Assembly (NCBI RefSeq): GCF_000828635.1
Contig: NZ_AP012547.1
Coordinates: 1,798,001 to 1,862,000 of the forward strand
Source of the DNA: Sulfuritalea hydrogenivorans sk43H
GTDB taxonomy: Bacteria; Pseudomonadota; Gammaproteobacteria; Burkholderiales; Rhodocyclaceae
Length of the DNA: 64,000 bases
Reading direction: 5' to 3'
Below the pieces are notes generated by a model. The model searched no databases. It was not told the origin of the DNA and saw only the letters and a program-made list of their open reading frames with translations. The position numbers and the translations under genes are program-made. Below, in pieces: positions 2,661 to 49,305 of the stretch (position 1 is the stretch's first letter; every line of letters begins with the position of its first letter).

Positions 2661-2682
2661 AGTCGGCGCTGGCGATACGGCG
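2661..2682 (+). repeat. Dispersed 22-bp repeat, copy 1 (intergenic)
   Basis: Reads AGTCGGCGCTGGCG then ATACGGCG. It lies 2 bp beyond the stop codon of the radical SAM gene (minus strand, stop at 2685). The same word recurs at 14360, 21292, 23821, 37847 (inverted) and 49284, with weaker copies at 5003 and 26219. Confidence 0.75.
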
Positions 2683-2684
2683 AT

Positions 2685-3779
2685 TCAGGCGGCGTGCAGC
2701 CTGACCGGAATCCGCTGCGGACCGAAGGGCTTGCCGAACTCGCCGAAGCGGCCGGCGATGGCGGTGCCGCAGTGTTTGCAATGGCCCGTGGCATCCAGTT
2801 CGTAGCCGAGGATGCGATACCAGTCGCGTTCGATCACCGGCTTGCCGCAGCCGGGGCAGTAAGTGGCGTCGCCGGCCTTGTCGTGCACGTTGCCGGTATA
2901 GACATAGCGCAGGCCGGTGTCCATGGCGATGTGGCGGGCGCGGGTCAGCGTCGCCGGTGGCGTGGCGGGGATGTCGTCCATTTTCCAGTCGGGGTGGAAG
3001 GCACTGAAGTGCAGCGGTACGTCGGGCCCGAGTTCCTTCGCCACCCAGGCCGACAGCGCCTTGAGTTCGTCATCGCCATCGTTCTTGCCGGGAATCAGCA
3101 ACGTGGTCAGTTCAAGCCAGCAATCGGTTTCGTGGTGGATCATCGCGAGGATGTCGAGCACGGGCTGCAGATGCCCGCCGCAGAGATTGACGTAGAAGTC
3201 GTCGGTGAAGCCCTTGAGGTCGACGTTGGCGGCATCCATCTTCGCGTAGAACTCGCGCGCCGGTCCGAGGTGCATGTAGCCGGCGGTGACGGCGACGGTC
3301 TTGACGCCCAGCGCATGACAGGCATCGGCGGTGTCCATTGCGTACTCGGCGAAGATCACCGGGTCGTTGTAGGTGAAGGCGACGCTCTTGGCGCCTTCCT
3401 TCTTTGCGGCGCGGGCGATGGCTTGCGGCGTGGCGTCGTCCATCAGGCGATCCATGTCGCGCGATTTCGAGATGTCCCAGTTCTGGCAGAATTTGCAGGC
3501 CAGGTTGCAGCCGGCGGTGCCGAAGGACAGGATGCTGGAGCCGGGATAAAAGTTGTTGAGCGGCTTCTTTTCGACGGGATCGATGCAGAAGCCCGAACTG
3601 CGGCCGTAGGTGGTGAGCAGCATTTCGCCGCCCTGCATGGCACGGACGAAGCAGGCCGCGCGCTGGCCTTCGTGCAGCTTGCAGTTGCGCGGGCAGAGGT
3701 CGCACTGGATGCGGCCGTCATCGAGCTTGTGCCACCAGCGGGCGGGCACACCGCTTATGGGGTCGGCGCTTCTTTCCAT
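2685..3779 (-). CDS. amrS: AmmeMemoRadiSam system radical SAM enzyme
   Basis: 364 residues. The radical SAM cluster motif CNLACKFC (Cys91, Cys95, Cys98) sits in the typical context FGTAGCNLACKFCQNWD. Ahead of it is a Cys-rich N-terminal segment CDLCPRNC (Cys26/29/33), and there is a C-terminal zinc-ribbon-like part (YCPGCG ... CKHCG). This is the AmmeMemoRadiSam radical SAM protein, related to pyruvate-formate-lyase activases; its substrate is not established. The start MERSADPISG overlaps the end of the preceding AmmeB/AmmeA gene by 25 bp, which implies translational coupling. The gene is last in a four-gene leftward operon. Confidence 0.93.
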   Translation of the reverse strand: MERSADPISGVPARWWHKLDDGRIQCDLCPRNCKLHEGQRAACFVRAMQGGEMLLTTYGRSSGFCIDPVEKKPLNNFYPGSSILSFGTAGCNLACKFCQNWDISKSRDMDRLMDDATPQAIARAAKKEGAKSVAFTYNDPVIFAEYAMDTADACHALGVKTVAVTAGYMHLGPAREFYAKMDAANVDLKGFTDDFYVNLCGGHLQPVLDILAMIHHETDCWLELTTLLIPGKNDGDDELKALSAWVAKELGPDVPLHFSAFHPDWKMDDIPATPPATLTRARHIAMDTGLRYVYTGNVHDKAGDATYCPGCGKPVIERDWYRILGYELDATGHCKHCGTAIAGRFGEFGKPFGPQRIPVRLHAA

Positions 3780-5158
3780 TTTTGCACCTCGTAGCGTTGC
3801 AGTTCCACTTCGGAAGACCACCAGTCGACCGGCAGGCCGGCCTTCTGCTTGAGGTGGGCCATGAACAGGCGCGGCTCGGGCAGTTGTTCCCAGACTTGCG
3901 GCAGGAAGGTGCCGCGGCGGAATTGGCCACCCGGGCCTGCCGTCAGGATGACGCCGTCGACATGGGGCCGCAACTGGCGCAGGGCATCGGCTTCGCTGCT
4001 GAAACTCATTGATTGCGGCGCCGAGAGCAGCGAGACCTCGACGCGGATGCGCGAAAACTCGGCGACCGTCAGCGGCGGAAAGCGTGGATCGCTGAAGGCG
4101 GCGGCGACGGCGTTGGCGCGTACATCCTGATCGAGCGAGCGATGCGCTTCTAGCGAGCCGATGCAGCCGCGCAGATCGCCATTCTGCGTCAGCGTGACGA
4201 AGGTAGCGCCGGGGCTGGCCAGCGCGGGATGGTCGGGCTCGGCCTGCGTTGGCTGCTGGAGCCGGGCGGCGATGGCGTTGCGCGCGCGCACCAGCAGGGC
4301 CGGGCCGAGCGTATCGGCTTCGGCCTCGGGCTCATAGAGGGCGAACGAGGCATAACCGACCACGCGCCCCTTGTCGCCGGCGGTGTCACCCGAGTTGCAT
4401 TGCGCGACGCGCTCGATCCGCAGCCCGCGCCGTTGCGCCACCGCGAGCAGGCCGTTGATCGGCAGCGCACCGCAGGCCTGGTCGAAGCTGGTGAGCTGGT
4501 CGAGGGCGAGGATGTGCGACACCGTGGCGTTGTCGATGGATTGCGCTTCGCGGTAGCTGTGGAAATGCGACAGGTCGGAACTGATCACGATCAGGGTTTC
4601 CGGCCCGCCCCAGAGGCGGTCGAGCACTTCGGCGACTTCGGCGGCGCTGGCATCGCCCACGGCCAGCGGCACCAGTTCGAAGGCACCCAGCACGGTCTGC
4701 AGGAAGGGCAGTTGTACTTCGAGCGAATGTTCCTGGGCGTGGGCGGCATCGCTGGCGACGACCTGCGGCAGATCGGCCAGCGCATCGAGCGCGGCGCGGT
4801 CGAGCGGGATGCTGCCCAGCGGCGTGGCGAAGGCTTTGGCGGTTGGCGCCGCGAGGCCGCGCACGGATACCCTGTGGCAGGGCCCGAGCAGCACTACGCG
4901 GCAGATGCGTCCCGCCAGCGGTGCCAGCAGGGCATAGGCATGGCCCGCGGTGCCGCCGGAATAGACATAGCCGGCATGCGGCACGATGAGGGCCTTGAGA
5001 AGAGTCGGCGCTGCTCCGCCTTGCGTGCCTGGACTTCCGCTTCGCGGGACGGCAACGGCGGCGAGGCAGGTCAGCAATTCATCGCGCAGGCTGGCCGGAT
5101 CGCCGGGGTAGAACATGCCGGCAACGGCCGGCGGACGGATGGCGGTGGCTGGGTTCAT
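3755..5158 (-). CDS. Fused AmmeMemoRadiSam proteins AmmeB (Memo) + AmmeA (AMMECR1)
   Basis: 467 residues. The N-terminal half (about 1-265) is a Memo/AmmeB domain of the LigB-dioxygenase-like fold: RPPAVAGMFYPGDP at the start, LIVPHAGYVYSGGTAGHAY, and VVLLGPCHRV. The C-terminal half (about 290-465) is an AMMECR1 domain, with FVTLTQNGDLRGCIGSLEAHRSLDQDV carrying the conserved LRGCIG hexapeptide. Fusion of the two is common in bacteria that also encode the radical SAM partner next door. ATG 5158 has AAAGGG 6-12 bp upstream and starts with the family N-terminus. Biochemical function remains unproven. A partial copy of the dispersed repeat falls in the poorly conserved loop GTQGGAAPTLLK. Confidence 0.92.
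   Translation of the reverse strand: MNPATAIRPPAVAGMFYPGDPASLRDELLTCLAAVAVPRSGSPGTQGGAAPTLLKALIVPHAGYVYSGGTAGHAYALLAPLAGRICRVVLLGPCHRVSVRGLAAPTAKAFATPLGSIPLDRAALDALADLPQVVASDAAHAQEHSLEVQLPFLQTVLGAFELVPLAVGDASAAEVAEVLDRLWGGPETLIVISSDLSHFHSYREAQSIDNATVSHILALDQLTSFDQACGALPINGLLAVAQRRGLRIERVAQCNSGDTAGDKGRVVGYASFALYEPEAEADTLGPALLVRARNAIAARLQQPTQAEPDHPALASPGATFVTLTQNGDLRGCIGSLEAHRSLDQDVRANAVAAAFSDPRFPPLTVAEFSRIRVEVSLLSAPQSMSFSSEADALRQLRPHVDGVILTAGPGGQFRRGTFLPQVWEQLPEPRLFMAHLKQKAGLPVDWWSSEVELQRYEVQKWKEAPTP
5001..5013 (+). repeat. Dispersed repeat, partial copy inside the AmmeB/A gene
   Basis: AGAGTCGGCGCTG matches the first 11 bases of the 22-bp repeat plus the AG in front of it seen in other copies. 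After that it diverges (CTCCGCC). It is read on the minus strand as A-A-P-T-L in a variable loop. At 13 bp this could be chance; the other copies make it worth recording. Confidence 0.35.
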
Positions 5159-5187
5159 GACAATACCCTTTCGGTTTTGTCGATCTT

Positions 5188-7419
5188 CTAGCGAACGGTT
5201 CCCCGATAGCGAGGAGCGGCGTAGGCATGGGCATTGCGGAAGGCTTCGAAGAGCTTCCATCGTACGACCGGAATCCTCGATACGAGTTTCAGCGGCACGG
5301 AAAAGATTTCGCAATCATCGAGGGCGACGAGGCTGTCTGCGACGGGTGTGGCGGCACGCTGGTCCCCCGCATCCTCAAAGAGCAGGTCGGAACCCCAGCA
5401 TTCGCCCTTGCCGAGCACTTGGGCAGCTTCCTCGCCGCCTCGGGCCAGCCGCCCCTTGCCGATCAGATGCAGGAGCTGTTCTTCCCCGACGAAGGTTTCA
5501 CCCGCCTTGAGTTCGGTGATCCTGCAGTTCTTTGCCAGGGTAAACAGCGTGGTGCTGGTGACGGCGTCGCTGAACAGGAAGGTATGCCGCAGCCGCTCTT
5601 CGACTTCACGCACGTCAAGCAGTTCGATGCTGGAAAAGAAGCGCTCGATGAAGCTGCGGTAAAGGTCGGCTGGCAGGCGCAAGGCCTGCACGAAGCCGAC
5701 GGAGCGGTAGGTCTCGTTGCTGGGGCGGTCGTGAAGGGCGGCCGACTCGGCCAGCAGCGAACCGCTGAACAGCAGATGGGAATTGCCGGGCTCCTGCATC
5801 AGCATTTCGACCTTGCCCGCCAGCAGGAGGTAGATTTCCTGCGGGACTATGCCCGCCGGCGTGATGATGGTTTCCGGATTGAAGGTGACGATCCGGTTGT
5901 TGAGCAGCATGTGCAGCCGCTCCATCGGCACCATCGGAAAGTAGCTCCTGAGGAATTCGCTGGCATCGCGCAGCAGGAAGTTCTGCTGCCCCGGAATCAT
6001 CACGTCGAGCGTGCCGAAGGGCGCGCCCGAGCCGATGCGCCGCTCGGCATCGGTCAGGTCGCGGGAGGTATGCGCGAGCAGCAGCCGGGTGGAGCCGTCG
6101 GCGGCGAAATCGGCGGCGTTGCCGTGGATCATGCCGCCGCCGATGTCGATCTTCTTCAGATCCACGGCCCGCAGATAGGACGCCTTGACCGCCTGGGCGA
6201 GTTCGGGGCTTACCCCCGGCTTCGATGCATCGGTGGTGGTCATCGCGTCGAGCACGTCGAACGAGGCGATGTCGGCGAGATGGCTGTAGGTCCGATAACC
6301 GCCTTCCCACAGCACGCGGAAATCGAAAATGGTGGTTTCCACCGGATGAGGCGAAAGGATCGGTCGCACTTCCAGTCCCATGATGTCGTTCCACTCGCCT
6401 TGCTTCAGGTCGTGGATGTCGAAGTAGCGGGCGAACTCGCTTTCCGGGATGGACAGCAGGGCGCAGAGTTTCCGTGTCACCGAGGCGCGCACCAGCGGCG
6501 TGGCGAAATACTGCAACGGCTGGTCGCACTGGAGCAGCGTGGTCAGGCCGGCGAAATGGTCGTCGTGGCAATGGGTGTGGAATATCCCGGCCACTTCCTT
6601 CTTGCCGATGCCCAGCGCGTCGAGGCTGTAGTGGATGTTCGGCCCGGCGTCGATCAGGTATACGCGCCCCTGGTGGATGAGGACGCTGCCCATGGCCGGG
6701 CGGTTGTAGTCCCAGCCATCGCCGTCACCGGCGTGCACCACGGCGAAATAGTGGCGGTCGATGGCGACATGGCTCAGCGGATACGGGCACGGATAGGTTT
6801 CGTCGCGTTTCAGGTTCAGGTCGACCTCGACGGAATCCTCGCCATGGCTGATCCTGAACACATTGTGCGCAATGCGTTCGATGCCGACGCCGTCGCCGAT
6901 ATCGATGGCGTCGGCGCCCAGCGGCAGGCATTCGACGAAGGCATCGGGCTGGGCAATCTGGCCGAAGGCGAACTTGAGCTTGATGCGCATGAGCTCTTTC
7001 GCCGCGTCCTCGTCGATCCCGGCCTTGATCATTTCCTCGACCGAGACCAGTCCGTAGTTGCCGCGATGGATGTAGCGGAGCTGTGCAGCCAACTGCTCCG
7101 GCGTGCCGATCAGCCTGGGTTTCCTGCCGGTATTGTTGGGGTGATTCGGCAGCAGCATGCCCTGCCGGTAGAGCATCTGCAGGATGGGAAACTCGGCCAG
7201 GTTGCACAGGTGGCCGTTCTGGATCATCGAATCCGACAGCAGGATAGCATTCGGTCCGGTTTCGAAAGTCACGCCGCCGTCTTCGGTGGTCTGGATGATG
7301 CCTCGCCGGAACAGGTGCTTGACGGCGTCGGCGGGGGCGCCGCACAGCAGCGACAGACCGGCCGCGGGGATCTCGACATAGGAGATTCCGCTAGCAACGA
7401 CCAGTTTTCGGATCAGCAA
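5188..7419 (-). CDS. Metallo-beta-lactamase-fold protein with cyclic-nucleotide-binding-like modules
   Basis: 743 residues. Residues 1-190 form a domain I do not recognise. Residues 215-480 are a metallo-beta-lactamase fold with the metal motif HTHCHDDH at 281-288 and later His positions in LSPHPVETT and MIHGNAAD. The last 220 residues contain two cyclic-nucleotide-binding-like segments (PQEIYLLLAGKVEML; AGETFVGEEQLLHLIGKGRL). It should be a cytoplasmic hydrolase or oxidoreductase; the substrate is unknown. No ATG fits the conserved start. I chose TTG 7419, preceded by AAAGGAAA at a good distance and 16 bp after the MgtC-like gene; an upstream extension would run through that gene. The downstream AmmeB/A gene starts 29 bp later. 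Confidence 0.8.
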   Translation of the reverse strand: MLIRKLVVASGISYVEIPAAGLSLLCGAPADAVKHLFRRGIIQTTEDGGVTFETGPNAILLSDSMIQNGHLCNLAEFPILQMLYRQGMLLPNHPNNTGRKPRLIGTPEQLAAQLRYIHRGNYGLVSVEEMIKAGIDEDAAKELMRIKLKFAFGQIAQPDAFVECLPLGADAIDIGDGVGIERIAHNVFRISHGEDSVEVDLNLKRDETYPCPYPLSHVAIDRHYFAVVHAGDGDGWDYNRPAMGSVLIHQGRVYLIDAGPNIHYSLDALGIGKKEVAGIFHTHCHDDHFAGLTTLLQCDQPLQYFATPLVRASVTRKLCALLSIPESEFARYFDIHDLKQGEWNDIMGLEVRPILSPHPVETTIFDFRVLWEGGYRTYSHLADIASFDVLDAMTTTDASKPGVSPELAQAVKASYLRAVDLKKIDIGGGMIHGNAADFAADGSTRLLLAHTSRDLTDAERRIGSGAPFGTLDVMIPGQQNFLLRDASEFLRSYFPMVPMERLHMLLNNRIVTFNPETIITPAGIVPQEIYLLLAGKVEMLMQEPGNSHLLFSGSLLAESAALHDRPSNETYRSVGFVQALRLPADLYRSFIERFFSSIELLDVREVEERLRHTFLFSDAVTSTTLFTLAKNCRITELKAGETFVGEEQLLHLIGKGRLARGGEEAAQVLGKGECWGSDLLFEDAGDQRAATPVADSLVALDDCEIFSVPLKLVSRIPVVRWKLFEAFRNAHAYAAPRYRGTVR

Positions 7420-7435
7420 GATGATTTCCTTTCGA

Positions 7436-8689: not shown

Positions 8690-8705
8690 TCGCTGGTTCT
8701 CGCGA

Positions 8706-8736: not shown

Positions 8737-8742
8737 TGCGCC

Positions 8743-13583: not shown

Positions 13584-13985
13584 TTAAACGTTTGGCGGAT
13601 CGCCGCGGTTGCGCATGTGATGCGCCAGGTCGTTGAGCGACTTGTCCAGCGCGGCGCGCAAGCCGTCGTCGGGTATCACTTCCGCCATCGCCTGGCGCAT
13701 GCACAGCATCCATTGTTCCGCTTCGTTGCTGGCGATGGTAAAGGGCAGGTGCCGCGCGCGCAGCTTGGGGTGGCCGAACTTCTCGACATAAAGCTGCGGA
13801 CCGCCCAGCCAGCCGCAGAGAAACATGAACAGTTTTTCCTCGGCGCTGGACAGATCCGCAGCATGCAGCTTGCGGATGCCGTAGGCCTCGGGCAGCGTGT
13901 CCATCAGTTCATAGAAACGCTGTACCAGCTGGCGCACGGCAGGTTCGCCGCCGATGCGGGAGAAGGGTGTGGTGGTTTCGTTCAT
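13584..13985 (-). CDS. Truncated haemoglobin, group II type
   Basis: 133 residues in the 2-on-2 globin fold. RIGGEPAVRQLVQRFYELMD is the N-terminal helix pair. FMFLCGWLGGPQLYVEKFGHPKLRARHLPF includes the group-II GGP turn and the proximal His (RARH). EQWMLCMRQAM carries the group-II Trp of helix G. Such proteins bind O2 or NO and are tied to redox or nitrosative stress. The start overlaps the end of the sensor-kinase gene by 4 bp, so it is the last gene of the ompR-envZ operon. Its TAA stop lies within the TTAA target duplication of the neighbouring IS5-type element; the reading frame is undamaged. Confidence 0.92.
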   Translation of the reverse strand: MNETTTPFSRIGGEPAVRQLVQRFYELMDTLPEAYGIRKLHAADLSSAEEKLFMFLCGWLGGPQLYVEKFGHPKLRARHLPFTIASNEAEQWMLCMRQAMAEVIPDDGLRAALDKSLNDLAHHMRNRGDPPNV

Positions 13986-15445
13986 GGGGCGACGGTGGCG
14001 GTTGGGGTGGAAGGGTGCAGCACCAGGCGGGCCACCAGCCCGCCGCCTTCACGCGCCAGCAGTTCCAGGCGGCCGTTGTGGGAGCGGGCGATACGCTCGA
14101 CGATGGCCAGGCCGAGGCCGGCGCCCGCCGCATCGGTGCGGGCGGTTTCAAGACGGGCAAAGGGCCGCTTCATGCGTTCCACCTCCTGCGACGGAATGCC
14201 GGGGCCGCGGTCGCGTACCTCGATGCTGGATTCGCCGGCGGCGGCATTCAGGGCGAGCTCGACCGGGGAGTCGTTGCCGGCATGGCGCAGTGCATTGTCG
14301 ATCAGGTTGCTGACAGCCCGGCGCAGGGCCTGCGGCCGCACCGGAATGGCGCTGGCAAGAGTCGGCGCTGGCGGTACGGCGACATTGAAGCCACGACGCT
14401 GGTATTGCGTGGCGAGTTCGGCCAGCAGGGCGCCGACATCCACCTCCTGCAAGGCTTCGCCGCTTTCCGAGCGGGCGAAATCGAGAAACTGGCCGATGGT
14501 CTTGTCCATTTCCTCGATGTCGGCAGTCATGCCTTCGCGCAGGCCGTCGTCGCCGGCCATTTCGATGCCCATGCGCAGGCGCGTCAGCGGCGTGCGCAGG
14601 TCGTGCGAAATGCCGGCCAGGATCAGGGCGCGGTCCTGGTCGAGCTGGGCCAGGTCGGCGCTCATCTGGTTGAAGGCATGGGCGACGGTCGCCAGTTCGG
14701 TCGGGCCGCCTTCATCGAGGCGGGCCGCCGTCTCGCCAGCGCCGACTTTGCGCGCGGCTTCCTGCAGGGCCTTGAGCGGGCGGGTGATGCGAAACACGAT
14801 GAGCCAGGCGCCGAGCAGGGAAAGCAGCAGCGCCGCCACGCCCCAGCCCAGCCAGCCCAGCGGAAACACGCGGTCGATGCGCTCGCGGGGCAGGGCCAGC
14901 CAGTAGTTGCCTTCGTCGCTGTCGTCGATGCGGAAGCTGACGAACAGGGCCCGTTCGCCTTCCCGTTCCAGCGTCAGGCGGGTCGCCGGTCCCAGTTGTT
15001 CCCTGACCAGTTCTTCCACCCGGAGCAGGAAAACCCGGTCGGGCAGCGGTTGGACACGGTCCGTTGCATCGGCCGGGTAGATGTGGATGCCTTCGCGGTC
15101 GGACAGTTCGCGCAACAGTTCGCGGCGCGCTTCGGGACGGGCGGAAACCAGCGCCGCACGCGTCAGGTTGGCCACGCTGACCAGGGTTTGCGCCAGTTGC
15201 CGGGCGCGCGGCTCGCGCTCGTAGGCCCGGAAAATGGCGAACCAGGCCACGACGGAAAGCACCATCAGCAGGGCCACGAACAGGAACGTGCGCCAGAGAA
15301 GAGTCTGCGGCCATGGCCGCAGCCGATCAGTCGCCCCCTTCCGCGGGGCGTAGGCGGGATTTCGCGAAGCATCGCTTCGTGCCGCCGCAGCCGGCCGGCT
15401 GTGCAAAGCCGGCCGTGGGGCCGGGGATGGGGGGATGGCTGTCAT
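13982..15445 (-). CDS. EnvZ-type membrane sensor histidine kinase
   Basis: 487 residues. The N-terminus is an unusual Pro/Ala/Arg-rich cytoplasmic stretch (1-47). It is followed by a membrane helix (WRTFLFVALLMVLSVVAWFAIF), a periplasmic sensor of about 110 residues, a second helix (WGVAALLLSLLGAWLIVFRIT), HAMP, HisKA with LAGISHDLRTPLTRLRM (phospho-acceptor His281) and an ATPase domain (NLIDNALRHA; DRGPGIP; GAGLGLAIV). The start overlaps the regulator stop (TGATG). A copy of the 22-bp repeat encodes VAVPPAPTLA between HisKA and the ATPase domain, and a cluster of palindromes encodes the N-terminal extension. It likely senses an envelope signal and phosphorylates the adjacent OmpR-type protein. 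Confidence 0.92.
   Translation of the reverse strand: MTAIPPSPAPRPALHSRPAAAARSDASRNPAYAPRKGATDRLRPWPQTLLWRTFLFVALLMVLSVVAWFAIFRAYEREPRARQLAQTLVSVANLTRAALVSARPEARRELLRELSDREGIHIYPADATDRVQPLPDRVFLLRVEELVREQLGPATRLTLEREGERALFVSFRIDDSDEGNYWLALPRERIDRVFPLGWLGWGVAALLLSLLGAWLIVFRITRPLKALQEAARKVGAGETAARLDEGGPTELATVAHAFNQMSADLAQLDQDRALILAGISHDLRTPLTRLRMGIEMAGDDGLREGMTADIEEMDKTIGQFLDFARSESGEALQEVDVGALLAELATQYQRRGFNVAVPPAPTLASAIPVRPQALRRAVSNLIDNALRHAGNDSPVELALNAAAGESSIEVRDRGPGIPSQEVERMKRPFARLETARTDAAGAGLGLAIVERIARSHNGRLELLAREGGGLVARLVLHPSTPTATVAP
14360..14381 (+). repeat. Dispersed 22-bp repeat, copy inside the EnvZ-type kinase gene
   Basis: AGTCGGCGCTGGCG then GTACGGCG, 21 of 22 identical to copy 1. 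On the coding (minus) strand it reads V-A-V-P-P-A-P-T-L in the region linking HisKA to the ATPase domain. The same residues PAPTLA arise from the copy in sucB. Confidence 0.75.
15305..15432. repeat. Cluster of palindromes encoding the kinase N-terminal extension
   Basis: Four hairpin-forming words occur in about 125 bp. They are the perfect palindrome CTGCGGCCATGGCCGCAG at 15305-15322, CGCCCCC with GGGGCG at about 15332-15350, CGAAGC with GCTTCG at about 15364-15378, and AGCCGGCCGGCT at about 15389-15400 with a second GCCGGCC downstream. They resemble a REP/BIME-like unit. Here most of them fall inside the open frame of the sensor kinase. Confidence 0.5.
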
Positions 15446-21291: not shown

Positions 21292-21313
21292 AGTCGGCGC
21301 CTGCGGTACGGCG
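21292..21313 (+). repeat. Dispersed 22-bp repeat, intergenic copy
   Basis: AGTCGGCGCCTGCG then GTACGGCG. It lies 34 bp beyond the stop of the leftward gene ending at 21348, in the same orientation relative to that gene as copy 1 has to the radical SAM gene. Confidence 0.7.
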
Positions 21314-23820: not shown

Positions 23821-23842
23821 AGTCGGCGCCGGCGCTACGGCG
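23821..23842 (+). repeat. Dispersed 22-bp repeat, copy behind acnB
   Basis: AGTCGGCGCCGGCG then CTACGGCG, 21 bp past the acnB stop codon and 4 bp from the terminator hairpin. Confidence 0.75.
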
Positions 23843-23863: not shown

Positions 23864-26449
23864 TTACACCGTGACCGTATCCGCCAGCTCCTTGAACTCG
23901 GCGATCTGGTCGAAGTTCATGTAGCGATACACGTCGCCGGCCTTGGCTTCGAGCGACTTGACCTGCTCCATGTACTCGGCCACGGTCGGGATCTTGCCCA
24001 TCAGCGCCGTCACCGCCGCGAGTTCGGCGGAACTCAGATAGACGCGGGTGTCGATGCCCAGGCGGTTGGGGAAGTTGCGGGTCGAGGTCGACACCGCCGT
24101 GCTGCCCTTCCGGATCTGCGCCTGGTTGCCCATGCACAGCGAGCAGCCGGGCATTTCCATGCGCGCGCCGGACTTGCCGAGGATGGCGTAGTAGCCCTCT
24201 TCGTTGAGGATCATGGCGTCCATCTTGGTCGGCGGCGCGATCCACAGCCGCGTCGGGATGTCGGTCTTGCCTTCGAGCACCTTGCCGGCAGCGCGGAAGT
24301 GGCCGATGTTGGTCATGCAGGAGCCGATGAACACTTCGTCGATCTTCTCACCGGCGACTTCCGAAAGAATCTTGACGTCGTCCGGGTCGTTGGGGCAGGC
24401 CAGGATCGGCTCCTTGACGTCGGCCAGGTCGATCTCGATCACGGCAGCGTACTCGGCATCCGCGTCGGGAGCGAGCAGGGTGCCATTGGCGATCCAGGCT
24501 TCCATGGCCTTGACGCGGCGGCCCAGCGCCCGCTTGTCGTCGTAGCCCTCGGCGATCATCCACTTCATCAGCGTGATGTTGGAGCGCATGTACTCGACGA
24601 TCGGCTCCTTGTTCAGGCGCACGGTGCAGCCGGCAGCCGAGCGCTCGGCGGAGGCGTCGGTGAGCTCGAATGCCTGTTCCACCTTGAGGTCGGGCAGGCC
24701 TTCGATTTCGAGGATGCGGCCCGAAAAGATGTTCTTCTTGCCCTGCTTGGCCACGGTCAGCAGGCCGGCCTTGATGGCGTAGAGCGGAATCGCGTTGACC
24801 AGATCGCGCAGCGTGATGCCGGGCTGCAACTTGCCCTTGAAGCGCACCAGTACGGATTCCGGCATGTCCAGCGGCATCACGCCGGTGGCGGCGGCAAAGG
24901 CGACCAGGCCGGAGCCGGCCGGGAAGGAAATGCCGATCGGGAAGCGGGTGTGGCTGTCGCCGCCGGTGCCGACGGTGTCAGGCAGCAGCAGGCGGTTCAA
25001 CCAGGAGTGGATCACGCCGTCGCCGGGACGCAGCGAGATGCCGCCGCGCGCGGTGATGAAGGAGGGCAGGGTGCGGTGGGTCTTGACGTCCACCAGCTTC
25101 GGGTAGGCGGCGGTGTGGCAGAAGGACTGCATCACCAGGTCGGCCGAGAAGCCGAGGCAGGCGAGGTCTTTCAGTTCGTCGCGGGTCATCGGGCCGGTGG
25201 TGTCCTGGCTGCCGACCGAGGTCATCTTGGGTTCGCAGTAGGTGCCCGGGCGGATGCCCTTGCCTTCCGGCATGCCGCAAGCGCGGCCGACCATCTTCTG
25301 TGCCAGCGAATAGCCCTTGCCGGAATCCTTCGGCGCCTGCGGCAGGCGGAACAGCGTCGACACTGGCAGGCCGAGGAACTCGCGGGCCTTGGTGGTGAGG
25401 CCGCGGCCGATGATCAGGTTGATGCGGCCGCCGGCGCGCACTTCGTCGAAAATGACATCGGACTTGACCTTGAACTCGGAGATCACGACGCCGTTCTTCA
25501 GTGCCTTGCCTTCATAGGGACGCAGCTCGACTTCGTCGCCCATGTTCATCTGCTCGACGTCGAGCTCGATCGGCAGGGCGCCGGCATCTTCCATGGTGTT
25601 GTAGAAAATCGGCGCGATCTTGGTGCCCAGACACACGCCGCCGAAACGCTTGTTGGGGACGAAGGGAATGTCCTCGCCGGTGAACCACAGCACGGAATTG
25701 GTCGCGGACTTGCGCGAGGAGCCGGTGCCGACCACGTCGCCGACGTAGGCGACCAGGTTGCCCTTGGCCTTGAGCGCGTCGAGCTGCTTGATCGGGCCGC
25801 GTTCGCCGGCCTTGTCGGCCTCGATGCCGGGGCGCGGGTTCTTCAGCATGGCCAGGCCGTGCAGCGGGATGTCGGGGCGGCTCCAGGCGTCGGGGGCGGG
25901 CGAGAGGTCGTCGGTATTGGTTTCGCCGGTGACCTTGAAAATCGTGACCTTCAGCGATTGCGGTACTTCCGGACGCTCGGTGAACCACTCGGCATCGGCC
26001 CAGGACTGCATGACCGCTTTGGCATTGGCGCTGCCGGCCTTGGCTTTTTCCGCGACATCGTGGAAGAAGTCGAACATCAGCAGCGTGGATTTCAGCGCCT
26101 TGGCGGCCGTGGCGCCGACCACGGCGTCGTCGAGCATGTCGATCAGCGGCTTCACGTTGTAGCCGCCGACCATGGTGCCGAGCAGTTCGGTGGCCTTTTC
26201 GCGCGAGATCAGCGCGCACGCCGTCTTGCCGGCGCCGACTCCTGCGAGGAACTCGGCCTTGACCTTGGCCGCGTCATCGACACCGGCCGGCACGCGGTAG
26301 GTGATCAGGTCGACCAGGAAGGCCTCTTCGCCCTTGGGCGGGTTCTTCAGCAGCGCCATCAGTTCTTCGGTCTGCTGCTTGGTCAGCGGCAGCGGCGGAA
26401 TGCCAAGGCTGGCGCGTTCGGCGACGTGTTGGCGATAGGCTTCAAGCAT
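23864..26449 (-). CDS. acnB: Aconitate hydratase B
   Basis: 861 residues, the normal AcnB length. It isomerises citrate to isocitrate in the TCA cycle. The N-terminal HEAT-like and swivel domains are followed by the Fe-S catalytic core; cluster Cys residues are in [12 protein letters not shown] and in GCSLCMGNQ. Other AcnB landmarks are [13 protein letters not shown] at the start, [15 protein letters not shown], and [23 protein letters not shown]. It ends with the usual NFDQIAEF tail. It heads the leftward TCA arm, followed upstream by a CitE-like gene and mdh. The stretch [13 protein letters not shown] is 19/22 similar at DNA level to the dispersed repeat but causes no length change. Confidence 0.97.
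26219..26240 (-). repeat. Possible degenerate copy of the dispersed repeat within acnB
   Basis: The reverse complement reads AGTCGGCGCCGGC then AAGACGGCG, 19 of 22 identical to the copy at 23821. It falls in codons for GVGAGKTA, where AcnB proteins vary but keep their length. Chance similarity in GC-rich coding DNA is quite possible. Confidence 0.3.
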
Positions 26450-37388: not shown

Positions 37389-38630
37389 ATGCTGATCGAA
37401 GTCAAAGTTCCCCAACTCTCGGAGTCAGTCGCCGAGGCCACCTTGGCGGCCTGGCACGTCAAGGAGGGTGACGCCGTCACCCGCGACCAGAACCTGATCG
37501 ACATCGAAACCGACAAGGTGGTTCTCGAGCTGCCGGCGCCCGACAGCGGCGTGATCGTCAAGATCATCAAGACCAATGGCGAATCCGTGGCCTCCGGCGA
37601 AGTCATCGCGCATCTGGATACCGAAGCCAAGGGCGCGGTTGCCGCTCCCGCCGCCGCCAAACCGGCGGCGAAGGCTGCGGCCGCGACCGCTCCGGCGGCA
37701 ACCGCGACGGCGATGCCGGCCGCGCGCAAGATCATGGACGAGAAGGGCCTTGCCGCATCCGACGTGCAGGGAAGCGGCCGTGGCGGCCGCATCCTCAAGG
37801 AGGACGTCGCCGGCGGCACGAAGAGCGTCCCGGCTGCGGCTCCAGCCGCCGTGTCGCCAGCGCCGACTCTCGCCGCCCGGCCTTCGCTGCCGCAACCCAA
37901 CGTCGTCAGTGCCGACGCCATCGTCGCCGACCGCCCCGAACAGCGTGTCCCGATGTCCCGCCTGCGCGCCCGCGTCGCCGAACGCCTGCTGCAATCGCAG
38001 GCCACCAACGCCATCCTGACCACCTTCAACGAGGTCAACATGGCGCCGGTGATGGAAATGCGCAAGAAATACCAGGACAAGTTCGAGAAGGAACACGGCG
38101 TCAAGCTCGGCTTCATGTCCTTCTTCGTCAAGGCCGCGGTCGCCGCGCTGAAGAAGTACCCGGTGATCAACGCCTCGGTCGACGGCAACGACATCGTCTA
38201 TCACGGCTACTTCGACATCGGCATCGCCGTGGGCAGCCCGCGCGGCCTGGTGGTGCCGATCCTGCGCGATGCCGACCAGATGAGCCTGGCCCAGATCGAA
38301 AAGAAGATCGCCGAGTTCGGCGCCAAGGCGAAGGATGGCAAGCTCTCGCTGGAAGATCTCAGCGGCGGCACTTTCTCGATTTCCAACGGCGGCGTGTTCG
38401 GTTCCATGCTGTCGACGCCGATCATCAATCCGCCGCAGTCCGCCATCCTTGGCGTGCATGCGACCAAGGATCGCGCCGTGGTCGAGAACGGCCAGATCGT
38501 GATCCGCCCGATCAACTATCTCGCGCTGTCCTACGACCATCGCATCATCGACGGTCGCGAGGCGGTGCTGGGCCTGGTCACGATGAAGGAAGCGCTAGAA
38601 GACCCGGCGCGCCTGCTGCTCGACGTCTGA
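37389..38630 (+). CDS. sucB: Dihydrolipoyl succinyltransferase (E2 of the 2-oxoglutarate dehydrogenase complex)
   Basis: 413 residues. The lipoyl domain (1-80) has the lipoylated Lys43 in [10 protein letters not shown]. An Ala/Pro linker (80-110) leads to the peripheral E1/E3-binding domain ([29 protein letters not shown]), a second linker and the catalytic domain, with [19 protein letters not shown] carrying the active-site HxxxD. The second linker contains [15 protein letters not shown], which is encoded across an inverted copy of the dispersed 22-bp repeat. The reading frame is intact. Confidence 0.96.
37847..37868 (-). repeat. Dispersed 22-bp repeat, inverted copy inside sucB
   Basis: On the minus strand it reads AGTCGGCGCTGGCG then ACACGGCG, 21 of 22 identical to copy 1. 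The sucB frame reads it as A-V-S-P-A-P-T(-L-A) in the flexible linker before the catalytic domain. Confidence 0.7.
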
Positions 38631-42342: not shown

Positions 42343-42428
42343 CTGCCCGGCCGCCGAAGAAAAATGTTGCGGCACTACGAAAGAATCAATGAGGTTTAAA
42401 CCTGAATCTGTTAATTTCGCAACCTTTA

Positions 42429-43388: not shown

Positions 43389-44005
43389 AGAACTTTGGCC
43401 AAACAGTCGAAGAAGTGCTTGGACCGTCATGCGGCAATGGGCATTCATCGAGCGAATTTATTCCGGGTAGGCATTCGCGAGTTCTCCGTTTGCGCACCTT
43501 CACAGATGCATGGCGCCGACTACTCTTCGGGCACGTTATAGATAGGAAGGTTTCCTTGCGCTGGGTTGCAGGCAGGGGTGAGGATAGGCCGCTACTCGGA
43601 CCAACAAAAGGACCAAACGTCGTGCAAACGCCGATAGCCGACGACTTCATATCGTGCAATCGCCGATATGAAGCGCTGATTAATCGCGGCGACTTGGCGA
43701 TGGGGCTCGTTGTGGAAGTTGAGGGAACGAATCGGCCCGTGTCCTCAAGGGCGTCACAGGTCGAGAAAGAGGCATCAGGGCAATAATGTCAAGAAGGTTG
43801 GGGAGGGGGGGGGATGCCCCCGCAACAACCCAAAGTCGCTTGGCAACCTAATGCCGAATCAGGTGCAGACCGCTGATGGAACAATGAAGCTTGGCTATAC
43901 TTGCCCATAGTGCTCGATCCACCCTACAACAGCAGCTGACGTCGCCAGCCATGCTCGGCTATGCAGCACTTGTGAAATTCTTGAATGACCAAGTCCGCAT
44001 AAAGC
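43389..44005. other. 617-bp region without a convincing gene
   Basis: Base composition is lower in GC than the neighbours and no frame gives recognisable protein. Two structures stand out. One is a perfect 10-bp inverted repeat CTTCATATCG/CGATATGAAG at 43645-43673 with a 9-nt loop and no T tract. The other is an uninterrupted run of nine G at 43805-43813, followed by ATGCCCCCG. The region could hold the promoter of the Crp/Fnr-type gene or a small RNA; neither is shown. Confidence 0.45.
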
Positions 44006-44806
44006 ATGAGCAGTAATCGGCGACATAACTCCGGCGGGTTGGACGACGGCCGACAAACTCACCTTGTTGCCAAGGCGAGCACGCGTGTTGCCGCAAAGGC
44101 CAAGGCGAAGGAAGAGACTCGGCCGCAGCCAACGTCGACCACCCTGCGCACCGTGCCTCTGCTGGCGGATTGTCCCGAGAGCCTGCTGAAGAAGATCGTT
44201 GCCGTTGCCGATTGGGGGCAGTACCAACCGGGTATGGAAATCACGCGCCAGAATGAGGCCCCGTGTTCGGTCTATTTTGTCGTTTCCGGCTGCGTCAAGA
44301 TCCTCCGGGGTGGCGGCTTCACAGATGTGGCGCAAGCGGCCGGACAGCAGGAAATGCGTTCGCGATCGCGCCCTCAAGTCGTGGTAGCCCTGGTTGGCGC
44401 CGGCGACATCATCGGCGAGCTGGGTGCGCTGCTCGAATGCGGACGCTCAGCCTCGATTGTGGCATTGACACCCTGCGAGATTGTTTCCATTCCTTGCGCG
44501 GATTTCCTCTCCAGCATGCAAGTCCACCCGCCGTTTGCAATAGCGGTGGCGCGCAAAATCGCACAGCGTTTGGTCGATACCAACCGGCAGGTCGAGTTGA
44601 TGCGGGGCAAGGTCGAAGACCGGGTTCAGGCCCTGAATCGCTACTGCAATTCACTGGGCCTGAATTCCGAACGCCTGTTCTCCAACGCCGAGATTGCACG
44701 CATGGTCGGTGCAAGTCGGGTCGCGGTAAGCCAGGTCGTCAACCGCTTGCGCCGTGAACGCGGCGAAACGGACCTCAAGATCAAACAATCAGCTGGCAAA
44801 CCGTAA
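44006..44806 (+). CDS. Crp/Fnr-family transcriptional regulator
   Basis: 266 residues. The first 48 residues are basic and Ala/Lys-rich (VAAKAKAKEETRPQP) and probably disordered. The cyclic-nucleotide-binding fold (about 50-175) contains GMEITRQNEAPCSVYFVVSGCVKIL and ALVGAGDIIGELGALLECGRSASIVAL. The C-terminal winged HTH has LFSNAEIARMVGASRVAVSQVVNRLRRER. No N-terminal FNR-type Cys cluster is present, so it is not an O2-sensing FNR. It lies 108 bp upstream of the type I secretion operon in the same direction and may regulate it (inference). Confidence 0.85.
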   Translation: MSSNRRHNSGGLDDGRQTHLVAKASTRVAAKAKAKEETRPQPTSTTLRTVPLLADCPESLLKKIVAVADWGQYQPGMEITRQNEAPCSVYFVVSGCVKILRGGGFTDVAQAAGQQEMRSRSRPQVVVALVGAGDIIGELGALLECGRSASIVALTPCEIVSIPCADFLSSMQVHPPFAIAVARKIAQRLVDTNRQVELMRGKVEDRVQALNRYCNSLGLNSERLFSNAEIARMVGASRVAVSQVVNRLRRERGETDLKIKQSAGKP

Positions 44807-44914
44807 AGTAGTTGACGGTTTTGCTGTTTATTCCGTTGCCATGTACTGAATTTCGATTCAGCATGCTGGCTCCGCGTCGACCGTCGCGGGCACGCCAATC
44901 CCACTGCACACATT

Positions 44915-47107
44915 ATGAGCGACTCGGGTCTGACGCTTATTGCCGAGCCGGCAGAGAGCGGCTCGTCGGCAGACGCCAAGCGCGAACCCGACACCGGCCT
45001 GATCGGCCTGGTGATGCTGGCCCGCTTCCACAACATCGCCGCCGACGCCGACCAGATTGCGCACGATTTCCGCGAATCCGGCAAGAACCTCACCGTGCCG
45101 CAGATCCTGCTGGCCGCCAAGCAGCTCGGCCTCAAGGCCAAACTGGTCGGCACCGAGCTTTCCCGGCTGCCACAGACTCCGCTTCCCGCCATGGCCATCG
45201 ACCCCGATGGCCATTTTTTCATCCTCGCCCGAGTCGATGGCGAGCAGGTCCTGATTCAGGACCCTCGCGTCGAACGCCCGCAAGTGCTTTCCGCCACCGA
45301 ATTCAGCGAACGCTGGAACGGCGAGCTGATCCTGTTCACCTCGCGGGCGTCTCTGGCCGGAGAACTCGCCAAGTTCGACTTCACCTGGTTCATCCCGGCT
45401 GTCGTCAAGTACCGCAAGCTGCTCGGCGAAGTGCTGCTGGTCTCCTTCGTCCTGCAATTGTTTGCCCTGGTCACGCCCTTGTTCTTCCAGGTGGTGATGG
45501 ACAAGGTGCTGGTCCATCGCGGCATGACCACGCTCGACGTCATCGCCATCGGCCTGCTGGTCGTCATGCTGTTCGAGGTGGCGCTCTCCGGCATCCGCAG
45601 CTATGTCTTCGCCCACACCACGAGCCGCATCGACGTCGAACTCGGCGCGCGGCTGTTCCGCCATCTGCTCAACCTGCCGCTGGCCTACTTCCAGGCACGG
45701 CGCGTGGGCGACACCGTGGCGCGAGTACGCGAACTGGAAAACATCCGCCAGTTCCTCACCGGCAACGCCATCACGCTGGTGCTGGATCTGCTGTTCTCGG
45801 TGGTCTTCATCGGCGTCATGCTGGTCTATAGCGGCTGGCTGACCTTGGTCGTGCTGATCTCGCTACCGTGCTATGTGCTCATCTCGGTCGGTATCACGCC
45901 GCTCTTGCGCGCCCGCCTGCACGAGAAGTTCAACCGCGGCGCGGAGAATCAGGCCTTCCTCGTTGAAACCATCAATGGCATCGACACAGTAAAGGCCATG
46001 GCCGTCGAGCCGCAAATGATCCGCCGCTGGGACAACCAGGTCGCCGCCTATGTCGCCGCCGGCTTTCGCACCGCGACCCTGGGCACACTGGCGCACGAAG
46101 GCGTATCGCTGATCGGCAAGCTGGTGACGCTGGTCACCATGTGGCTGGGCGCCCGGCTGGTGGTCGAGGGCAGCCTCAGTATGGGCCAGTTGATTGCCTT
46201 CAACATGCTGGCGGGGCGCGTCGCCACGCCGGTCATGCGTCTGGCGCAACTGTGGACCGACTTCCAGCAGACCGGCATTTCGGTACAGCGCCTGGGTGAC
46301 ATCCTCAACACCCGCACCGAACTCGGCAAATCTGCCGGGCAGGGCGGCCGCGCGGGCACCACGCTGCCGCCGCTGGCCGGCAAGATCGAGTTCGACGACG
46401 TGGCCTTCCGCTACCGGCCCGACGGACCGGAAGTCCTGCGCGGCATCAGCCTCGCCATCGAGCCGGGCGAAGTCATCGGTATCGTCGGCCGTTCCGGCTC
46501 CGGCAAGAGCACGCTGACCAAACTCGCGCAACGCCTCTACCTGCCCGAGCGCGGCCGCGTGCTGATCGATGGCATCGATCTGGCGATGGCCGACAGTTCC
46601 AGCCTGCGCCGCCAGATCGGCGTGGTCCTGCAGGAGAACATGCTGTTCAACCGCAGCATCCGCGACAACATTGCGCTCTCCGATCCCGGCTTGCCCATCG
46701 AAGCCGTGATGGCCGCCGCCAAACTGGCCGGCGCACACGAATTCATCCTTGAACTGACCGAAGGCTACGACACTCTGGTCGGCGAACACGGCTCGACGCT
46801 ATCCGGCGGCCAGCGCCAGCGCATCGCAATTGCAAGAGCGCTGATCGGCAACCCGCGCATCCTGATTTTCGACGAAGCCACCAGCGCGCTCGACTACGAG
46901 TCCGAACGCATCATCCAGAACAACATGAAAGCCATCTGTCAGGGCCGCACCGTGCTGATCATCGCCCACCGGCTATCGGCCGTGCGGGACGCCAACCGCA
47001 TCGTTGTACTCGATCGCGGCCAGATCGTGGAAGAGGGCAGCCATGCCGAGTTGCTGCGGCATGAGGCCGGGCATTACTCGCGGCTGCATCGGCTGCAGCA
47101 GGGATAA
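44915..47107 (+). CDS. Type I secretion ABC transporter (HlyB type)
   Basis: 730 residues. The N-terminal 130 residues form a C39 peptidase-like domain ([39 protein letters not shown]). The catalytic Cys is absent, as in HlyB, so it is a docking and not a protease domain. Six membrane helices follow (about 155-440). The ATPase has Walker A GRSGSGKS (525-532), signature [15 protein letters not shown], Walker [13 protein letters not shown] and the H-loop His in [10 protein letters not shown]. It should export the RTX protein encoded 3 kb downstream with the HlyD-type adaptor and a TolC not seen here. Confidence 0.94.
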
Positions 47108-47113
47108 GCGATG

Positions 47114-47530
47114 TTACGAGACCGACACCTCGACATGCCGCCCCAGTGCCCGCGCCGCCGCTTCGATCTGGTCGAGTCGCGACGCATGCCGCAGATCGAA
47201 CAGCCGATCCACCTGCGGCATGTGCCAGCCCAGGCGGCGGGCCAGTTCGGACTTCTTGATGCCCTGCTCGGTCATGGCCCGATAGACGCCCAGCTTGGCG
47301 CACTCCAAGGCGGAAGGGCGCACCGTATGCTGCCCGCGTTTTGGTTTGCTCGGAGTCGGCAAGGGTTTGCGGTCATCGACGTAGAACGAAAGCGCGGATT
47401 CAAGCGCATCGACGGCCTGAAGCAGCGCCTCGTCGGTGTCCGCGCCAAATGTAATGGCCTCCGGCACATCCGGAAAGGTCACCAACACCGTGCCTTCGTC
47501 GGGAGCCAGAATAACAGGGTAGTCAAACAT
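47114..47530 (-). CDS. hicB: HicB-type antitoxin
   Basis: 138 residues. The N-terminal partial-RNase-H fold reads MFDYPVILAPDEGTVLVTFPDVPEAITFGADTDEALLQAVDALE. The C-terminal DNA-binding HTH reads GIKKSELARRLGWHMPQVDRLFDLRHASRLDQIEAAARAL. HicB neutralises HicA and represses its own promoter. It lies 9 bp behind hicA. The stop codon is 6 bp from the end of the ABC exporter gene, with which it is convergent. Confidence 0.92.
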   Translation of the reverse strand: MFDYPVILAPDEGTVLVTFPDVPEAITFGADTDEALLQAVDALESALSFYVDDRKPLPTPSKPKRGQHTVRPSALECAKLGVYRAMTEQGIKKSELARRLGWHMPQVDRLFDLRHASRLDQIEAAARALGRHVEVSVS

Positions 47531-47539
47531 GATCTGTCC

Positions 47540-47719
47540 TCACTTCAATCCAAGCTGGCGTTTGATCGACGCCTCAAGGCCCTTGCCGAGTTCCGTAGTG
47601 CCGTGCATGGGCAGGATGGTTTGCCGGCCGTTCAGAAAAACCTTCAGATGAGACCCTTTGGCCGGCAGGAAAGTGGCGCCCTGTTGTTCCAGCCATTTCT
47701 TCATCTGCTTCGAGTTCAT
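47540..47719 (-). CDS. hicA: HicA-type mRNA interferase toxin
   Basis: 59 residues: MNSKQMKKWLEQQGATFLPAKGSHLKVFLNGRQTILPMHGTTELGKGLEASIKRQLGLK. The dsRBD-like fold and the catalytic His in KGSHLKVF are typical; HGTTELGKGLEASIKRQLGL is the usual HicA finish. It cleaves mRNA in a translation-independent way. ATG 47719 fits the family start; no Shine-Dalgarno is visible and the predicted transcript starts at about this base. In-frame ATGs at 47755/47752 lie upstream of the -10 box and are unlikely. Confidence 0.9.
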   Translation of the reverse strand: MNSKQMKKWLEQQGATFLPAKGSHLKVFLNGRQTILPMHGTTELGKGLEASIKRQLGLK

Positions 47720-47726
47720 GGGATGG

Positions 47727-47755
47727 ATACTAAACACTTCTGTTGTGTTCATCAA
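47727..47755 (-). promoter_or_regulatory. hicAB promoter with inverted repeat in the spacer
   Basis: On the minus strand: TTGATG (-35, complement of 47750-47755), a 17-bp spacer, then TAGTAT (-10, complement of 47727-47732). The spacer starts AACAC and ends GTGTT, a 5-bp inverted repeat that exactly fills it. This is a natural place for HicB repression. The site lies just upstream of hlyD, antisense to it. Confidence 0.6.
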
Positions 47756-47766
47756 GAGGCTGAGGC

Positions 47767-49224
47767 ATGACCCAAGCCCTCACCCTCCGCCTCCAAGCCA
47801 CGCTCGACCTGCTCAAGCGCTACGCCGCCATCTTCAGCCACGTCTGGAAAATCCGCAAAGACCTCGACCCGCCGCACCGGCTGCCGCATGAGGCGCAGTT
47901 TCTTCCCGCTGCCCTTGAGCTGCAGGAAACCCCAGTCTCCGCCGCGCCGCGCATCGTCGCCTGGCTGCTGATGAGCTTTGCGCTCATCGCCGTGCTGTGG
48001 GCCATCTTTGGCCAGATCGACGTGGTCGCCACGGCGCAGGGCAAGATCGTGCCCAACGAAGGCAGCAAGCTGATCCAGCCGATCGAGACCGCCGCCGTCA
48101 AGGCCATTCATGTGGTCGACGGCCAGGCCGTCAAGGCCGGGCAGGTGCTGGTCGAACTCGACGCCACCATGGCCCGGGCCGACAGCACTCGCACGGCGAA
48201 CGACCTCACCACAGCCAAGCTGCAAGCCGCCCGTGCTCGCGGCCTGCTGGCGGCCCTGACCACCGGCAAGACGCCGCGCATCGAAACGCCACTGGGTATT
48301 GGTGCAGGCATCGACGCAAGTATTGGAATTGAGCGCATCGCGCAAGAGCAGCGCATCCTCGATGGCCAGTACGGCGAATATCAGGCTCGCGTTTCGCGCA
48401 TCGACGCCGAAATCGCCAAGCGCGAAGCCGAACGGCGCTCCACCCAGGAAACCGTCAAGAAGCTCGAACAAACCGCGCCCATCGCCCGCCAGCGCGCCGA
48501 GGACTTCAAAGGACTGGTGGAAAAGAACTTCATCTCGAAACACGGCTATCTGGAAAAGGAACAGGCCCGCATCGAGCAGGAAGCCGACCTCGAAACCCAG
48601 AAGAGCCGCTTGAAGGAACTCGCCGCCGCCATCGAAGAGGCCAAGGGCCAGCGCAATTCCGCCGTCGCCGAAACCCGCCGCCTCGCGCTCGATACCCTGA
48701 ACGAAGCCGAACAGAAAGCCACCGGCTTCGGCCAGGAACTGGTCAAGTCAGACACCCGCGGAAAACTCATGACCCTCACCGCGCCGGTTGATGGCACCGT
48801 CCAGCAATTGGCCGTGCGCACCGTCGGTGGCGTGGTCACCCCGGCCCAGGCCTTGATGGTCATCGTGCCGAAAGACGACGCGCTGGAAGTCGAAGCCTTC
48901 CTCGAGAACAAGGACATCGGCTTCGTCAATGCCGGGCAGCAAGCCGAAGTCAAGATCGAAACCTTCCCCTTTACCAAGTACGGCACTATCCCCGCCAGCC
49001 TCGTCCATGTCTCGCGCGACGCCATCAATGACGAAAAGCGCGGCCCGATCTACTCCACCCGCGCCCGCCTGCAGCGCGCCACCATGCAGGTGGAAGACAA
49101 GACCGTGAACCTCTCAGCCGGCATGGTGGTGAGCGTGGAAATCAAGACCGGAAAGCGAAGGGTGATCGAGTACTTCCTCAGCCCGCTGTTGCAGCACGGC
49201 AGCGAGAGTCTGCGGGAGAGGTGA
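47767..49224 (+). CDS. Type I secretion membrane fusion protein (HlyD type)
   Basis: 485 residues. There is an N-terminal cytoplasmic segment of about 60 residues, one membrane helix (IVAWLLMSFALIAVLWAIFGQIDVVA), then the barrel-sandwich/lipoyl half-motif (GKIVPNEGSKLIQPIETAAVKAIHVVDGQAVKAGQVLVELD). A long periplasmic coiled-coil (about 135-325) follows, then the second half-motif (LTAPVDGTVQQLAVRTVGGVVTPAQALMVIVPKDD) and C-terminal beta domain. It bridges the ABC exporter to TolC. GAGGCTGAGG lies right before ATG 47767. It is separated from the exporter gene by the antisense hicAB module. Confidence 0.94.
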   Translation: MTQALTLRLQATLDLLKRYAAIFSHVWKIRKDLDPPHRLPHEAQFLPAALELQETPVSAAPRIVAWLLMSFALIAVLWAIFGQIDVVATAQGKIVPNEGSKLIQPIETAAVKAIHVVDGQAVKAGQVLVELDATMARADSTRTANDLTTAKLQAARARGLLAALTTGKTPRIETPLGIGAGIDASIGIERIAQEQRILDGQYGEYQARVSRIDAEIAKREAERRSTQETVKKLEQTAPIARQRAEDFKGLVEKNFISKHGYLEKEQARIEQEADLETQKSRLKELAAAIEEAKGQRNSAVAETRRLALDTLNEAEQKATGFGQELVKSDTRGKLMTLTAPVDGTVQQLAVRTVGGVVTPAQALMVIVPKDDALEVEAFLENKDIGFVNAGQQAEVKIETFPFTKYGTIPASLVHVSRDAINDEKRGPIYSTRARLQRATMQVEDKTVNLSAGMVVSVEIKTGKRRVIEYFLSPLLQHGSESLRER

Positions 49225-49283
49225 GCACGATGAAGCAAATTGACGAGAAAGGTACAGACATGCAAGGGAAGCGTGAATTGAAA

Positions 49284-49305
49284 AGTCGGCGCTGGCGAGA
49301 CGGCG
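49284..49305 (+). repeat. Dispersed 22-bp repeat, copy behind hlyD
   Basis: AGTCGGCGCTGGCG then AGACGGCG, 21 of 22 identical to copy 1; the next bases (ATTC) also agree with copy 1. It lies 59 bp past the hlyD stop. Confidence 0.72.

Follow-up and report, generated by a model that had tools for sequence, protein, structure and literature searches.

What keeps a word of 22 bp in place, copy after copy, along a bacterial chromosome? The question is raised by a stretch of 64,000 nucleotides from Sulfuritalea hydrogenivorans sk43H, a member of the Rhodocyclaceae (contig NZ_AP012547.1, positions 1,798,001 to 1,862,000; hereafter the window, with coordinates counted from its first letter), where a preliminary description had noticed a dispersed 22-bp element and had left it between a non-autonomous element, a protein-binding site and an uptake-like word. 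The last of these three readings is now the best supported, by placement, spacing, conservation relative to the flanks and genus spelling. As predicted from the sequence, the word probably constitutes a separate, unusually long DNA uptake sequence family in a group of Rhodocyclaceae. The basis for this is a set of observed properties (copy number, strand symmetry, placement, spacing, conservation of the motif against its flanks, absence from two stretches with conjugation or partition genes, restriction to some genera of the family and genus spelling), from which we infer an uptake function, a receptor and a molecular drive.

Copy number and anatomy of the word

All six copies originally listed lie where they had been placed. 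The first (2661..2682, plus strand, exact) occupies the gap between two convergent genes, a situation shared by the third (21292..21313, plus strand, two mismatches), and the second (14360..14381, plus strand, exact) is found within a gene for a sensor histidine kinase with RisS_PPD, HAMP, HisKA and HATPase_c domains (13982-15277, minus strand). The fourth (23821..23842, plus strand, one mismatch) lies directly past the aconitase B gene (23864-26449, minus strand), on its 3′ side; the fifth (37847..37868, minus strand, exact), inverted as claimed, is located within a 2-oxoacid dehydrogenase E2 gene (37389-38630), and the sixth (49284..49305, plus strand, exact) is intergenic, the upstream gene having its 3′ end about 60 bp before it. 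With regard to the two weaker matches also proposed, the one within the aconitase B gene (26219..26240, minus strand) holds with two mismatches when the middle of the word is left free, and the one at 5003 had to be dropped, as 8 of its 20 specified positions differ. The list was moreover incomplete, a strong copy at 14726..14747 (minus strand, exact when the two middle bases are disregarded) having been overlooked in the same histidine kinase gene. The claim of a recurrence above chance stood: AGTCGGCGCTGGCGNTACGGCG has eight matches in the window at up to three mismatches, compared with 0.02 expected from 100 shuffles, none of which reached eight.

At the scale of the whole genome (3,802,648 bp), a count of AGTCGGCGCTGGCGNNACGGCG with the middle two positions left free and up to three mismatches allowed gave 370 forward and 372 reverse matches. 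These 742 copies, or about 195 per Mb, compare with 10 (4 forward and 6 reverse) for the word read backwards under the same threshold. A whole-genome count had been named beforehand as able to overturn the recurrence, and it instead bears it out. Site statistics were obtained from a sample consisting of the window and 79 spaced stretches of 20 kb, which together comprise 1.644 Mb and 303 copies. In this sample, matches with 0, 1, 2, 3 and 4 mismatches numbered 117, 103, 60, 23 and 30, compared with 0, 0, 0, 5 and 31 for the reversed word, so that the family of words has a sharp limit at four mismatches, where its count no longer differs from the control. In the same line, none of 20 controls with permuted letters, applied to every fourth stretch, had a match at up to two mismatches.

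The logo of the sampled sites, from which 2 of the 303 near stretch ends were left out, covers about 28 bp and reads RAR-AGTCGGCGC(T/c)GGCG-(mostly A/G)(not A)-ACGGCG-A, with almost no signal beyond the final A. Its initial RAR agrees with the purine-A-purine previously noticed ahead of the core, which is indeed present in several copies. The total information of the word amounts to 34.8 bits, a value somewhat inflated by the picking of sites at up to three mismatches, and 13.3 bits are needed to locate 742 sites; such an excess would be better fitted by an accumulation of the drive type than by an ordinary regulator. The word shows no palindromy (best self-complement, 8 of 16), and no long hairpin was obtained in the four window copies that were folded (folding z-scores of −2.1, 0.5, −0.95 and −0.92). 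Repetitive extragenic palindromic (REP) sequences and bacterial interspersed mosaic elements (BIME), taken from their generally known features, resemble the word in their intergenic enrichment beyond gene ends and differ from it on precisely these two points, as well as in that two thirds of its copies (203 of 303) are in genes.

Placement, spacing and conservation of the copies

Genes were called with a purpose-made hexamer gene caller (1,523 genes, 87.5% coding). Copies proved to be depleted in coding DNA, with 203 observed and 265 expected among the 303 sites (4 sites were classed as stretch edge, with 1.9 expected), and enriched in convergent (24 versus 6.3), tandem (55 versus 21.3) and divergent (17 versus 8.3) gaps alike, which corresponds to observed/expected ratios of 2.0-3.8. 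The gene 3′ end was nearer than the 5′ end for 65 of the 96 intergenic sites. Thus, of the biases of strand and position raised in the preliminary description, the positional one is real, in the form of an intergenic enrichment mostly beyond gene 3′ ends, and the one of strand is absent (156 plus, 147 minus). Within genes, copies favour the frames whose translation is VGAGxTA or A/V-AVPPAPT, and the gene's own strand holds 118 of the 203. A by-product of protein coding (VGAGxTA being P-loop-like) and of codon bias would account for the first of these frames, used by 89 of the 203 coding copies; yet the 96 intergenic copies, the use of other frames and of the antisense strand, and the emptiness of the permuted-letter controls all contradict it, and the intergenic enrichment refutes this origin, whose probability we regard as practically nil.

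Neighbouring copies keep apart from each other. Only 30 adjacent pairs were separated by less than 1 kb, compared with 49.4 ± 5.5 expected, and none of 500 simulations in which counts per stretch were kept fixed gave so few. In addition, the variance of counts among the 72 non-empty stretches was 2.39 versus 4.05, a value as low being reached in 9 of 5,000 simulations, which likewise excluded the 7 stretches of the 79 without any copy. Two of these empty 20-kb stretches (C1:1937501-1957500 and 1985001-2005000) contain conjugation or partition genes and together hold no copy where 7.6 were expected. TraG_N and TraC genes lie in one of them, and the other contains a ParB gene together with a helicase/methylase-like gene of very large size; both are close to the terminus and are probably parts of a conjugative element.

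Spaced copies retained in tolerant spots would also fit the site of a chromosome-organising protein involved in nucleoid structure, segregation or replication and distributed along the chromosome. In favour of such a site, the origin half is slightly denser (2.09 versus 1.61 copies per 10 kb, or versus 1.69 without the two conjugation/partition stretches; p 0.075). Against it, there is no replichore polarity, with 144 of the 303 copies in the leading-strand sense (p 0.42), and no regional restriction was seen over the sampled stretches; the word is not palindromic, its information, somewhat inflated as it is, exceeds the 13.3 bits needed, and it is also carried by phage contigs. Comparison with the FtsK-orienting polar sequences (KOPS) and with matS, again by their generally known features, leads to the same picture: they are similarly short, numerous and dispersed, and the word lacks the polarity of the former and the macrodomain restriction of the latter. 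An apparent one-way orientation over long stretches was traced to the order in which matches had been listed and is absent from the sampled stretches. Altogether, a chromosome-organising site appears fairly unlikely. As for the protein-binding site of the preliminary description, its segregation or macrodomain variants are made less likely by the missing polarity and regional restriction, and a binding site in the general sense may still apply, an uptake sequence being itself one.

Further evidence came from the alignment of single copies with their counterparts in relatives. Sixteen named loci were related to the window, of which 13 belong to Sulfuritalea, other Rhodocyclales or beta-proteobacterial metagenome-assembled genomes, and the remaining three (L123-L125), from distant genera, were excluded from the alignments and from the counts in named relatives. 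These loci were obtained with a plus-strand open frame antisense to the histidine kinase gene, so they are valid as gene neighbours and their percent identities are not. Across 53 aligned site pairs, which stem from 17 own sites, some used many times, and are thus not independent, identity reached 88.0% in the word, compared with 75.7% in the first 30 bp on each side, 82.2% at 31-100 bp and 84.5% at 101-200 bp. The word is therefore retained within spots that change fast locally. A clear example is the copy at 37847, which sits in an indel-rich stretch that separates the E3-binding domain of the 2-oxoacid dehydrogenase E2 from its catalytic domain. It was kept at up to three mismatches in all but one of 12 aligned sequences, the 11 coming from six genera; the exception was genome G019, of genus g19.

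The same alignments bear on a tiny mobile or non-autonomous repeat inserted as a unit, the first option of the preliminary description. Its high copy number would be natural for such an element, and so would the finding, described below, that in some phage contigs the word opens a longer shared unit, about 55 bp in length, whose left flanks vary. No clean gap of 22-28 bp was however found in aligned relatives without the word, a result from few informative sites, with several of the alignments untidy; these relatives have either a degenerate stretch about as long as the word or ill-defined gaps, and in one relative 36 additional bases interrupt the word. Moreover, conservation in the host stops at about 28 bp, many in-gene copies sit in preferred frames and the four folded copies lack a long hairpin, all of which makes an inserted repeat very improbable.

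Family distribution, spelling and likeness to known uptake sequences

Among 199 genomes of the family, 23 (from 8 of 68 genera) carry 94-830 copies each. In the carrier genera this holds for every sampled genome, namely six of g1, five of g19, four each of g46 and g64, and single genomes of g8, g14, g38 and g45. Three further genomes, of g23, g56 and g66, show intermediate counts of 30-70, and the remaining 173 have 0-25 copies, the reversed word giving 0-21. The 12 named relatives (L110-L121) hold 95-824 copies and the outgroup (L122) 8, with 16 for its control; two entries of these 13 named genomes, G202 and G151, show the same counts and may be one genome. Outside the family, none of 242 genomes from other families of the order exceeded five copies at up to two mismatches.

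The spelling of the word changes with the genus. The final base is G in nearly all copies of the own genome (G000, of g1; A:G 10:302), and G dominates in the carriers outside g19 except in G138. In g19, three genomes have an almost uniform A (A:G 55:1, 150:2 and 168:1) and the other two are mixed (147:108 and 102:145). We read this difference as a change of dialect. Genomes G014 (g14) and G045 (g45), with 94 and 134 near copies and no exact copy of either spelling, suggest a further dialect; G114 has a single exact copy. A count of frequent words in four non-carrier genomes (60-80 kb each) yielded nothing comparable that could represent other dialects, although this approach has little power: when it was applied to two control sets of 80 kb from the own genome, the word came top of the 12-mers in both, and among the 10-mers it was first in one and sixth in the other; in the carriers it ranked sixth among the 10-mers of G019 (60 kb) and fell outside the top eight in G046 (80 kb).

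In the uptake model, a sequence-specific receptor belonging to the competence machinery of the type IV pilus would read the word as a tag, so that DNA of the own kind would be preferred in natural transformation. New copies would appear through point mutation or recombination, and fragments bearing the tag would be taken up and recombined more often, which would spread and repair the copies (molecular drive). A spread of this kind would lead to accumulation in tolerant places, such as those beyond gene ends, in protein linkers and in a few harmless frames. The own genome encodes ComEC and a minor-pilin cluster with ComP_DUS-type, GspH-type and PilW-type proteins, and these genes, together with the likeness to published uptake sequences, point to a pilus receptor that would prefer the word and to its spread by biased uptake.

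That likeness can be drawn from several sources. Published uptake sequences are described there as core-genome words located in tolerant spots, conserved, absent from newly acquired genes and partly born by recombination (PMC2397512), and as forming genus dialects (PMC3630211); for the uptake signal sequences (USS), an even spacing and an origin by point mutation have been reported (PMC1939737), with genome densities of 31-913 per Mb in the Pasteurellaceae (PMC12616744). The word resembles the DNA uptake sequences (DUS) of Neisseriaceae in its hundreds of copies, its tolerant core-genome spots, its retention above the neighbourhood and its genus dialects (PMC3630211, PMC2397512). It belongs to a different family and, in a comparison of published sequences by eye, has no core in common with DUS beyond CTG, which is found in many words. 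With the USS of Pasteurellaceae, which comprise a 9-mer core, an extended 17-mer and two types, it shares conserved positions beyond the core, the existence of two types and even spacing, and its density of about 195 per Mb lies within the published range (PMC12616744). On the other hand, the word is GC-rich throughout and lacks the A/T-rich tail of the extended USS, and the sequences are unrelated except for a superficial AAAGT...CGG.

Several observations weigh against an uptake sequence and have to be set beside this evidence. With about 22-28 bp and a loose middle, the word is far longer than the known cores (10-12-mers in DUS, with a CTG core and ComP as the receptor), and close inverted pairs, which as terminator pairs are common for Neisseria DUS, are rare here (2 among 303 sites). 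Over all 79 stretches the evenness of counts is at chance level (mean 3.73, variance 3.54). Copies per 20-kb stretch increase with G+C (r 0.57), and the gaps in the map may hence be due in part to composition; moreover, judged by eye, the longest genes of 5 of the 7 empty stretches include none for conjugation, and since two of these five are ribosomal or ilv/leu gene regions, again by eye, emptiness by itself is no mark of foreign DNA. The spelling is untidy in G138 (g46; final base A:G 16:15), and several carriers have few exact copies of either spelling relative to their total at up to three mismatches. The candidate receptors do not help either: ComEC is present in 194 of the 199 family genomes and the ComP_DUS pilin model is matched in 185, carriers and non-carriers alike, so neither can be singled out by presence, which in genes nearly universal in the family cannot name the receptor, and no ComP_DUS match was obtained in carriers G045 and G138. 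Finally, phage contigs carry the word as well, at about 0.61 copies per 10 kb versus 1.95 in the host, a density taken from 36 records that were all selected for holding the word, with one copy per record subtracted.

Neisseriaceae and Pasteurellaceae are mostly animal-associated bacteria with short uptake words. These two families are where most work on self-specific DNA uptake has been done (PMC1939737). If the uptake function is correct, this group of Rhodocyclaceae would be a separate case, among environmental Betaproteobacteria, in which the word is far longer and its spelling shifts within one genus, and would thus provide an independent lineage for testing how uptake words start, spread and change. 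Natural transformation would then be predicted in these bacteria, for which a literature search on the point found no report; nor did other searches, whose coverage lacked most subscription papers, show among the matches listed any report of the word or of uptake sequences in Rhodocyclaceae.

Copies in phages and integron-like sites

An exact-match scan of IMG/VR returned at least 120 stretches with the word, and the analyses of phage loci used 80 of these among the matches listed. Ten large proteins from ten phage loci were compared with PHROGs: five matched head, terminase, tail, tape-measure or primase families, a weaker endolysin/unknown or a ParB-like family was matched by two others, and the last three had no match, which indicates that at least some of the word-bearing contigs are true phages. 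Short DNA matches to the host-family sample were seen for 5 of the 80 loci among the matches listed. Density varies among phages: L347, selected by the motif, has four copies at up to three mismatches in 22 kb, and L360, found by its head gene, has three copies in 21.5 kb, each with one mismatch, so that the word in this phage group is not far below its density in the host. By the same search, 17 of the 23 loci found by the head gene have no copy at up to three mismatches.

These copies would be explained by temperate phages subject to the same drive or by elements exploiting the tag, and a function other than uptake, common to host and phage, is also possible. One such function would be another mark of self and non-self or a recombination signal, for instance of a defence or repair system, from which host phages would benefit by carrying the word. 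The presence of the word in phage contigs and the density in the L347/L360 group agree with it, and the 17 head-gene loci without a copy do not. Chi-type signals are short and polar and the word is neither, which counts against its recombination variant. We consider another self-mark or recombination signal improbable, although it is, with the chromosome-organising site, one of the two serious rivals of an uptake sequence.

Ten of the 80 listed loci (L237, L251, L256, L269, L284, L287, L296 and L300 among others) have in common a unit of about 55 bp that has the word at its left end and is preceded by several different left flanks. The unit consists of the word, a 26-bp stretch and YAACG, and is often in frame as the same C-terminal tail. 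In many of these loci it is followed by an attC-like site, a class judged by eye on generally known features (TAACG ... hairpin ... GGGTTAG); an Rfam search of eight such loci gave no integron site family. Series of attC-like sites with small genes between them, for example a DNA methylase, extend over 4882-7972 in L269 and 10282-11752 in L287, and sites of this kind stand beside word copies in L246, L251, L296 and L305. Integrons are known in phages (PMC9892861). In a broader form of the uptake proposal, which is possible and on balance doubtful, the word would belong to a third, independently evolved uptake language, with a long two-part word, genus spellings and kin-biased transformation, exploited by phages and by integron-like cassettes riding transformation.

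Two minor observations concern the viral records. The related contigs L370, L371 and L372 have stretches of 3-5 kb in common at >99% and differ in the attC-like region, and record G229 (L253) contains at 3004-4358 five exact or near-exact copies of the word, the first four 316 bp apart, in a tandem-array-like arrangement. Within the window itself, a plus-strand open frame of 2,996 residues at 50027-59017 obtained a strong coding score from the hexamer gene caller.

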